NCBI RefSeq assembly: GCF_000003815.2
Contig: NC_049991.1
Location: 6,842,087-6,906,086, forward strand
Origin: Branchiostoma floridae
Lineage: Eukaryota; Chordata; Leptocardii; Amphioxiformes; Branchiostomatidae
Length of the DNA: 64,000 nucleotides
Reading direction: 5' to 3'
Below the pieces are notes generated by a model that saw only the letters and a program-made list of their open reading frames with translations, was not told the DNA's origin and made no database searches. Shown piece after piece: positions 12,501 to 15,500 of this stretch. Position 1 is the first letter of the stretch. Each line of letters begins with the position of its first letter. Position numbers and translations under genes: made by a program.

Positions 12501-15500
12501 TCAGGACGTAAAATGAAATTTAAATAGAAACAATGGAATAAAAATCATAACGCATGAGTTTTAAAATCCTCACCTGCCACCTGCCTTAATTGAAGATATG
12601 CCTTTTTTTTACATTCCTCAAACTTTAAAAAAGTGCAATAAGAATATATAAAAATCTGCAGTACTTTATTCCCAATATAGACCTTACAGTCCGGACGTGT
12701 CCTGACGGAAAGCCCCTAGTTTACTGCATAGATGACCCTTGCATTCATGCTTTGTGTCCGGTGGGAGAAAAGTGTGTGTAAGTAACAAGGCCCTTTTTGT
12801 CTTATTTTTCTGTCTAAGTTAATGGATTTCATAGAAACATTTTGACGCTAGTTAGTATCTCTATTTTCATGGAGAAATAACTTTGAGTGTGTCTGTGTGT
12901 GTGCCTGTCTGTGTGTCTGTCTGTCTGTGTGTCCGGATTTTTTAGAGAGCATAACTCAAGAACCTCTGAATGGATTGCGATGATATTTGTTTTGTGGGTA
13001 GGTGTTGGGAAGAAAACGGTCAAGGTCTATTCTGGGCCCCCTGGTTTGTGACTTTGGTACTGTAACAGGAATTATTATTTTTTAACTGGATGTGCTATGG
13101 TCATGATTTTTAGATGGCAGATAGCTTGTGACACAAGGGATATATAGTGTATATTTAGTCCCACTAGCAGGTTGTTCTGGAACTGCAGGGGCATTTTTGT
13201 CAAAATCTTGGAGGATAACTTAAGAAGGGACCGGAATGGCAAATTTACATGATATTTGGTATGTAGGTAGCTTAGACAGAGATGCACATCATGAAGTGCA
13301 AAATATGCAAACTGACACTTAATTTGCATATTTAACGAGGATAATATGTTCTTGCAGTGTTTCCTTTATAGAAGTCAAATACATGCAATATATGTTCTTT
13401 ATGGCAGGTGGAACATCATCAGGTACTAATTATGCAAATAAGTCCTTAATTTGCATAATTAATGCAGAAGTGCCATAATTGTGGTAAATAATTGGACAAT
13501 CAACATAGTGACCAACGTATTTTTTTTACAGGTGTACATAACTAAGCATAGCTTATGCAAATGTGGAAGTCGTTTACATAATCTGACTATTTCATGGAGA
13601 TGTGAGGTCTCCAAACTCTTGTTCAAATTGAATTGTAAATATCCATATTTGTTTCCCTTTCTTAGGGCCGACTTCTGTGGTGAATGTAACGCCAAGTGCG
13701 TTCCAATTAACCCACCTGGTAAGACCTGCCGCTATCTCTTGGATACATATATATATATATATATAATATTTCTTATACATGTTATCACTACCTTTTTTGC
13801 CAGCGTATCCTTTGTTTCAAGGGGTTAAAACGTTTTGTTAAGTTTGAAATGTATCGTGTCGATGAATGTTAGAGGACTGGATACAAAAATCGTTACTGAT
13901 GAGAGTTTCTACATTTTAGAAGTGTATCCAGTAGCTCGAGTAGCTGATTATATGTTCGTACATTTGTTCATTTCTAATACATTACATTGCTTATCATTTT
14001 ACAGCTACTGTGCTAGAATACAAATTGCTTTTATTTTCTCCTATTTCTATGGGAAGTGTTTAGTCATGTACTAAGTATGACTGAATAAAGCCCTAAGTGA
14101 ACTTTGTTTCATGGCAGCAGTTAAGTGCAACAGCTGGACAGACTGGTTTGATCGAGACAACCCCTCAGGGACAGGCGACTGGGAACTTCTGATCAACCTC
14201 CAACAGGAGAACCCTGGCCGGATTTGCAAGGCGCCCACTGTCATCGAGGCGCGCGTCAAAGTCAGCGGAACGAACGCACTGACCACGGGAGAAAACTTCG
14301 CCTTCTTTGACGCCACGACTGGCTTCGTGTGCAGGAAAAGGGACCAGTCGGACAACAGGTGTCTCGACTATGAAGTTCGCTTCTGCTGTCCGGATGTCAG
14401 TATGTACTGTTTTACATCAACAGATATACAATACACAACATATGTCTAAAGTCTTCCAAACTTACAAAGAATTGTGATACATTGAAGATTCTGCAGCGTA
14501 AACTTTACTCATCGAGAAGATGATAATGCGACATTGGCTAAATTTTCAGACTGTCTTGATGGGTCCTTGGCACTCATGTGCGAATTATTTACAGTGGGCA
14601 GACTATTCTGCCGGTTTCTAAACGCTCTGTTTCAACTATGACTCATGTGTGGCTTGTTCACAGTTCCAGACTGCCCTGGCGGGTCCTGAACGACATGGTT
14701 CGATCATGACTCATGTGTGGCTTATTCACAGTTCCAGACTGCCCTGACGGGTCCTGGACGCCATGGTTCAACCGTAATTCATGTGTGATTTGTTTACAGT
14801 TCCAGACTGCCCTGACGGGTCCTGGACGCCATGGTTCAACCGTAACCCATGTGTGATTTGTTTACAGTTCCAGACTGCCCTGACGGGTCCTGGACGACAT
14901 GGTTCGACCGTGATAATCCTGGTGGCAACGGTGACTGGGAAGCACTGGTCCATCTCCGCCCTGAAAACCCTGGCCAGATCTGTTCCAACCCTACAGCCGT
15001 GCATGCGCGCGTCATCAGCACACAAGTGGAGGCGTCGCTGACAGGGCAGGTTATCCACTGGTACGACACGACAAACGGCTTCGCCTGCGTAAACAGGCAA
15101 CAGAACGATGGCGACATGTGCCTGGAGTATGAAGTTCGCTTCTGTTGCCCTTGTAAGTACATGTTGCTACCCTCTCAAGTAGTATTATACTTTATCTACT
15201 TTATACTTTCTGCTACCTACACCTTAACTGAAATACACAAAAATGTAAGCATTCTTATAATGAATGTAGTCCAAGACAGGAATGTATTTTTCATTTTTTC
15301 TTTGCTACATTACAGCTATATTATTACATGAATAAATTATTCTGTAATTAAGTTTATTTTTCACCTCTAGTCGTGAATAATTTATGCTAATTTAATTAGA
15401 TCATCGGCCAACATCCAACTGGTATCTTAAACATGTGTGACGTTTGTTGATGATGTTGCTGTTGACAAGAGAAGTCGTAGCGGACATTAGTATTCTGTTA

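Follow-up and report, generated by a model that had tools for sequence, protein, structure and literature searches.

The stretch of DNA analysed here, referred to as the window, comprises 64,000 nucleotides of the Branchiostoma floridae genome (contig NC_049991.1, here C13:6842087-6906086) and harbours six exons encoding WxxW domains, with PF13330 detected in all six of the corresponding ORFs given (E 2e-24 to 7e-26). Among ten other ORFs given, four, located upstream, match EGF-type families, two of these only below the Pfam cut-off, and a search of the whole window against Rfam at the gathering threshold returned no matches. The WxxW exons, numbered E1 to E6, and the repeated units found before two of them are as follows.

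14118..14399, + strand: WxxW exon E1, the upstream exon (PF13330, E 2.1e-24 on the ORF; boundaries read from the sequence)
14400..14867, + strand: array-bearing intron before E2, 468 nt to the authentic acceptor and 195 nt to the first false one
14540..14567, + strand: partial unit, the most degraded (nhmmer with the unit profile, E 0.012)
14569..14636, + strand: unit u0, false AG at 14593-14594 and a degraded exon head, then a 69-base step (sequence and nhmmer unit profile)
14638..14705, + strand: unit u1, false AG at 14662-14663, its head having TGA where the first W of WxxW would be encoded (sequence)
14706..14773, + strand: unit u2, false AG at 14730-14731, frame stop at 14854 (sequence)
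14774..14841, + strand: unit u3, false AG at 14798-14799, frameshifted, with no difference from the authentic site over -20 to +29 (sequence)
14842..14867, + strand: authentic intron tail, acceptor AG at 14866-14867, the sole open frame among five acceptors
14868..15152, + strand: WxxW exon E2, 285 nt, phase 1-1 (PF13330, E 3.3e-25; donor GTAAGT)
15809..16078, + strand: WxxW exon E3, without a close upstream head copy (PF13330, E 1.5e-24; locus L037)
17397..17666, + strand: WxxW exon E4, without a close upstream head copy (PF13330, E 4.8e-25; locus L029)
17802..17869, + strand: false unit before E5, AG at 17826-17827, head TGA at the same codon as in u1 (sequence and unit profile)
17896..18180, + strand: WxxW exon E5, paralogue of E2 (PF13330, E 1.1e-24; 274 of the first 284 sites identical)
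19105..19374, + strand: WxxW exon E6, without a close upstream head copy (PF13330, E 6.9e-26; locus L019)

Exon E1, which starts at 14118 or 14121 depending on which of two consecutive CAGs is taken, ends in phase 1 at a GTATGT donor at 14400, and the intron that follows carries the array of interest. A preliminary description of this DNA had placed five CAG acceptors at 14594, 14663, 14731, 14799 and 14867, and all five are found there, at spacings of 69, 68, 68 and 68 bases. Its label, a minisatellite made of splice acceptors, is also correct: the 68-bp units combine a 3′ splice site with the head of a WxxW exon, each consisting of approximately 26 nt of intron end (ACTCATGTG...TTTACAG), with a branch region, pyrimidines and CAG, and approximately 42 nt of exon head (TTCCAGACTGCCCTGACGGGTCCTGGACG...). 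Tandem Repeats Finder (TRF) delimits the array at 14641-14911, with a period of 68, 4.0 copies, 91% matches and a score of 416. As a chance control, 14501-14938 was shuffled 300 times with its dinucleotides preserved. Self-identity over 190 bases (lags 20-150) peaks at 0.92, at lag 68, and at no more than 0.41 in the shuffles; YAG sites spaced 67-70 bases apart form a chain of five, the longest in any shuffle being three. None of the 300 shuffles of this segment contained a comparable tandem structure. A second, two-acceptor array precedes E5, with a false AG at 17827 and the true AG at 17895, 68 bases apart, and no close upstream copy of their own head was found for E1, E3, E4 and E6 (L038, L037, L029 and L019). 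In amphioxus, a minisatellite lying across an intron-exon boundary is known as a mirage (PMC3087553, PMC3902484, in the parts of the text available). The array before E2 is such a boundary-spanning minisatellite, located beside the true boundary.

The local splice signals do not favour the true acceptor. The true site before E2 has 10 pyrimidines among the 17 bases from -20 to -4, as do three of the false sites, and the fourth false site has 9 of 17; a YTNAY motif at -19 is present in all four false sites and absent from the true one. Ahead of E5, pyrimidines make up 12 of 17 bases at the false site and 10 of 17 at the true one, with a motif at both. Acceptors 14867 and 14799 are identical from -20 to +29, and any preference between them must therefore stem from the farther context, be it the exon body, the downstream donor or the order of transcription.

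The five acceptors differ in the reading frame behind them. The last base of E1, at 14399, is a phase-1 A, which makes A|TT the codon across each junction, and the first stop is met at 14639 from acceptor 14594, at 14687 from acceptor 14663 (8 codons in), at 14854 from acceptor 14731 and, after a frameshift, at 15039 from acceptor 14799; among the five, only acceptor 14867 gives a frame that stays open to the donor after 15152. The earlier account of these frames, a TGA after eight codons from 14663, a stop in the next unit from 14731, a frameshift from 14799 and an open frame from the last site, is right on every point. Nonsense-mediated decay (NMD) targets messages whose stop lies more than 50-55 nt before an exon junction. 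As the stops from all four false sites before E2 (4/4) fall 111 to 511 nt upstream of the junction, all four messages are predicted NMD targets under this rule.

Related arrays were sought throughout the B. floridae genome (513,431,437 bases, 431 contigs). The first 119 bases of E2 matched 26 places (best-scored candidates), at least seven of them from query position 1 and running into the exon: two on C13, the contig of the window, two on C11, one on C5 and two on C17. Among the matches listed, further units precede the exon in all seven same-head exons (7/7) and number 48 at a cut-off of E below 0.001, distributed as 4 + 1 on C13, 13 + 1 on C11, 17 on C5 and 7 + 5 on C17, so that the seven exons carry 1, 1, 4, 5, 7, 13 and 17 units. 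The acceptor AG is kept in 47 of these 48 false units, or in 47/49 when a broken-acceptor unit above E 0.001 (L010 reversed, ~5320), left out of the set, is counted. With an A taken to stand before every acceptor, as read from the upstream exon for E2 and E4/E5 only and by assumption for C11, C5 and C17, 17/48 units among the matches listed share the frame of the true exon, 31/48 do not, and none of the 17 is stop-free.

The arrays are confined to one type of exon within the set compared. Close upstream head copies occur at 4/4 loci of this exon type and at 0/26 others among the best 30 of 143 WxxW matches, copies 900 or more bases away being taken as neighbouring exons and left uncounted. Three paralogous exons that match only from position 23-24 (C5:3468275, C17:18202394 and C14:19295491) are without this head and have no array of the same. 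A tail repeat at L024/L025, considered as a further boundary array, was rejected, since the L024 sequence as printed shows nothing but intron in it. At L044, a 70-base copy (88.6%) of the locus's own exon end and the sequence following it was also observed.

Spacing differs among the arrays, being 68-69 on C13, mostly 67-71 in the large C11 array and 33 to 123 on C17, and the 3′ part of the C5 array alternates between 68 and 94, forming a 162-bp higher unit. An 11-base repeat (TGACTCATGTG) is nested in the intron part on C5 and C17. As a side observation, the same 11 bases occur in the window at 14639-14649 and form an 11-bp tandem repeat of their own on C5 and C17 (arrays of L010, L012 and L013); the TGACTCA that they contain equals the AP-1 consensus, perhaps by chance.

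Two comparisons with C11 bear on how these arrays evolve. Positions 17139-18275 of the window are 100% identical over 1137 bp, introns included, to a C11 stretch (L009), which may mean that the region was duplicated very recently or was entered twice in the assembly; the two-acceptor C11 array sits inside this stretch, 100% identical to the array before E5 in the window, and its exon may not be a separate gene copy. Positions 17874-19466 are 97.6% identical to another C11 stretch of ~1.6 kb, with one false unit on C13 and 13 on C11, and unit number can therefore change fast with little change in sequence, with the caution that C11 may contain a misplaced copy of this region. We infer that the array is older than the split of the paralogues and that units have been gained and lost since.

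Within the array before E2, the units become more alike towards the exon. Identity to block 14800-14867 is 97% for 14732-14799 and 82% and 72% for the two blocks that precede the latter, and a small tree built on few sites groups the young pair 14732-14799/14800-14867 with a bootstrap of 90. Concerted change with the ends excluded, by which mirages are also recognised, is found here over few sites, with inner blocks at 97% and the outermost at 72%. The TGA at the first W codon is common to u1 and the false unit before E5, and at the corresponding position u0 has a TAA, which a single-base insertion puts out of frame. On these few sites, the simplest reading would be that an old stop-bearing false unit predates the E2/E5 duplication and that the newer units were copied later.

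The false exon heads diverge as intron does. Between u3 of E2 and the false unit of E5, 11 of 42 head sites differ, compared with 1 of 42 in the true heads and 10 of 284 in the exons (each is 285 nt, compared over the first 284); in the flanking introns, with gap columns left out, 16/87 and 89/436, that is 105 of 523 aligned sites, differ. By Fisher's test, false-head divergence differs from that of the true head (p 0.003) and of the exon (p 6e-6) and not from that of the intron (p 0.33); the heads thus change at the intron rate rather than the exon rate, and the copies behave like intron. Across the arrays, with head changes tallied once per contig and base, false-head changes fall on codon positions 1, 2 and 3 as 32/38/28, as against 2/6/7 in the true heads. 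A reading of the units as a coding repeat was rejected on this absence of a third-position excess, together with the finding that 0/48 units among the matches listed are in-frame open.

The acceptor AG itself is retained above a naive neutral expectation, which is to be taken as a hint and not as a result. A naive binomial gives p 0.0025 for AG at 47/49 if each base is kept at 0.90 (a rounded column mean), a figure that treats as independent units which were copied from each other. By number of distinct changes, the AG pair ranks among the 3 lowest of 65 adjacent pairs, and an internal AGA of the exon head (columns 30-32), without an evident splicing role, is kept about as well.

The reading that we favour, at a probability of about 0.82, is that this mirage is largely splice-neutral debris of slippage, tolerated rather than used. 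A unit made of an intron end and an exon head would have been copied into the intron via slippage or unequal exchange; the spliceosome would mostly take the last, exon-proximal acceptor, the exon being recognised across its own length together with the donor after 15152, and rare use of an upstream acceptor would yield an early-stop message that is destroyed. Preference for the exon-proximal site and decay of mis-spliced messages would be what allows the array to persist. The choice of acceptor is likely decided by context, a complete exon following the last site alone. The preliminary description had named neutral slippage and a tuning of mRNA level through NMD as two options; the former fits better, given the intron-rate divergence of the false heads, their lack of a third-position excess and a unit number of 1-17 among the matches listed, and for the latter no positive support was found.

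Studies of splice-site competition speak on both sides of this reading. Under exon definition, the site nearest across the exon is favoured, as the authors of PMC9225289 conclude in the text available; the minigenes described there concern 5′ sites, and 3′ sites were addressed through transcript data, in which the upstream preference is reduced under exon definition. In the classical tests as recounted in the same text (PMC9225289), the upstream acceptor won, an intron-proximity rule that would make upstream acceptors win here too and counts against this reading. Since upstream acceptors win classically and the upstream preference at 3′ sites is reduced, some use of the false sites is plausible. 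The retention of AG in 47/48 units (among the matches listed) also weighs against this reading, and the presence of an array at 7/7 paralogous exons (among the matches listed) could mean function.

A functional alternative holds that the array is a bank of poison acceptors, used at a regulated or constant rate, with the products removed by NMD and the number of units setting mRNA output. It would account for false units of which, among the matches listed, none of the 48 is in-frame open and 47 keep their AG, for the four stops in the window 111-511 nt before the junction, which the 50-55 nt rule makes predicted NMD targets, for false sites whose local signals are about as good as those of the true site, and for arrays at every same-head exon (7/7 among the matches listed). 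However, with 31/48 units out of frame (among the matches listed) and at least ~68 bases to be crossed to the true exon, zero productive units is, by estimate, unsurprising; moreover, unit number is unconserved (1 to 17, among the matches listed), divergence of the false heads matches that of intron, and regular splicing has been described for other mirages in the available parts of PMC3087553 and PMC3902484. We consider this alternative unlikely. Equally doubtful is its most far-reaching form, in which selection would preserve, in each paralogue, an inherited bank of functional dead-end acceptors that compete with the true one, slippage-variable unit number would act as a heritable or somatic dial on mRNA, and the boundaries on C17 described below would stem from the same process, leading to a WxxW exon split by a new intron.

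A quite improbable alternative is that the array serves as raw material for novelty, either with a unit becoming a small cassette exon or with the array seeding a new intron, as in the model proposed for amphioxus globin genes. The segment 14732-14773 is 42 nt long, in frame and open when joined to 14868. Splice donors are scored over a nine-position consensus, of which its donor, ACC|GTAATT, matches 6/9 positions, and this candidate cassette micro-exon was rejected: it is open in silico, yet its donor is weak. The intron version draws on a model published for mirages (PMC3087553, in the text available) and on a paralogous gene on C17 (L012), in which a 724-nt intron interrupts a WxxW exon left whole in the window paralogue; the acceptor end of this intron occurs at six places from 6135 to 6732, in steps of 99 to 130 bases.

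This C17 gene departs from the window in several ways. An intron interrupts its E2-type exon behind STQ (4677/5045), and the one just mentioned (6010-6733) interrupts its E3-type exon behind DIQ; when joined, both split exons are open and align with the intact window exons by eye. At 7920-8373, after a WxxW exon, the exon end CTTCTGCTGTCCAG|GTAAG recurs as a 19-bp donor unit (TGTCCAG|GTARG) in ~24 copies by TRF; the segment searched contains 28 AGGT and 23 AGGTRRG, and only the first AGGT keeps the frame, 0/27 of the later ones being in-frame open. A 60-bp array with seven CCACAG sites lies downstream of the donor array. The intron at 6010-6733 is possibly an intron gain with the array still present, a comparison that would allow polarity either way and either order of intron and array, and the pattern is in keeping with the published proposal that intron gain goes along with mirages. 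A search for the donor-copy motif at a further C17 locus, L013, returned one place.

Some further arrays were read by eye. The 60-bp arrays at L012 8490-9045 (9 copies) and L011 1297-2553 (20 copies) have CTCCACAG acceptor-like ends beside a PYCPSGDPYLPNY-like coding repeat, and a 110-bp array of 3.0 copies at L013 (C17, 3718-4044) overlaps a piece of a WxxW exon and the sequence following it.

The least probable explanation, that the array or its copy number arose in assembly through repeat collapse or expansion or joined haplotypes, may point to the two 100-N gaps of the window (both beyond 60 kb), to the 1137-bp C11 stretch as a possible misplaced duplicate and to an amphioxus mirage whose repeat number differed between two genomic sequence versions (PMC3902484, text available), but it must contend with arrays of other spacing on C5, C11 and C17 and with units that differ by up to 28% and are therefore not copies of one read segment, which leaves doubt over the 97% pair 14732-14799/14800-14867 alone: an artefact is unlikely for the array as such, and the exact copy number could be wrong.

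Mirages have been described in the amphioxus Adh3, globin, troponin C and PGBD5 genes, including 2/15 globin genes (PMC3087553, PMC3902484). In the parts of these papers available, the authors state that mirages do not seem to disturb regular splicing, judging from Adh3 data and from RT-PCR of globin genes (PMC3087553), and that the Adh and TnC mirages leave regular splicing intact (PMC3902484). Introns of amphioxus VCBP3 contain complete or partial exons, some with splice sites, according to the text available (PMC2632668), and no mention of mirages was found in the text available of PMC2206037. Like known mirages (BflGb6, BflGb9, troponin C and PGBD5, as far as they are described there), the present array has a boundary-spanning unit, many units with splice signals, a variable unit number (6 and 3 in BflGb6 haplotypes) and homogenised inner units with the ends excluded. 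Unlike them, it lies in a gene for an EGF/WxxW protein and has a 68-bp unit, arrays of one exon recur in 7/7 paralogous exons (among the matches listed), and one paralogous gene has several arrays, of donors as well as acceptors. The array is of a known kind, a mirage, to which recurrence at one exon in related genes is an added feature; the sharing of an array across a set of paralogous exons was not found described in the available parts of PMC3087553 and PMC3902484, and no paper joining WxxW with amphioxus was found in the literature searched.

Other systems are similar in part. Tandem-duplication intron gain under the Rogers model (potato RdRp, Drosophila), as far as the accounts available describe it, likewise duplicates a segment with splice signals; unlike those cases, no new intron has been made in the window array. 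In a published case of novel introns, again from the text available, early-stop products of mis-splicing are possibly hidden from selection, as they would be here, although whole introns are concerned there and extra acceptors of an existing intron here. The CeRep25B minisatellite of C. elegans (PMC4039745) likewise lies near alternative splicing, with multiple splicing decisions, but differs in being a repeat of intronic motifs, without description as a copied exon boundary in the parts available.

The array before E2 constitutes a natural competition test for splice-site choice, which the paralogues extend to 2-18 acceptor units (among the matches listed) and the C17 gene to about two dozen donors. 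The WxxW exon that is split on C17 and intact in the window is a place to check the model in which mirages seed introns. That the dead-end acceptors matter for expression is an unproven chance.

A few further features of the window were observed alongside. The WxxW exons are flanked by a repeated protein region (11003-12223 and 20984-22169), pieces of which show 81% and 84% DNA identity and which has no Pfam match at E 0.001. On the minus strand, 34500-53000 contains ankyrin-repeat ORFs and PARP-like pieces (PARP catalytic domain, PARP14 KH domain), which probably belong to one or more separate genes; a tandem repeat at 35638-35824, considered as a further mirage, was rejected as it falls inside an ankyrin ORF. 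Minisatellites with a 163-bp period are located at 30635-31382 and 44732-45093, and the printed parts of their consensus sequences look alike by eye, in opposite orientation.
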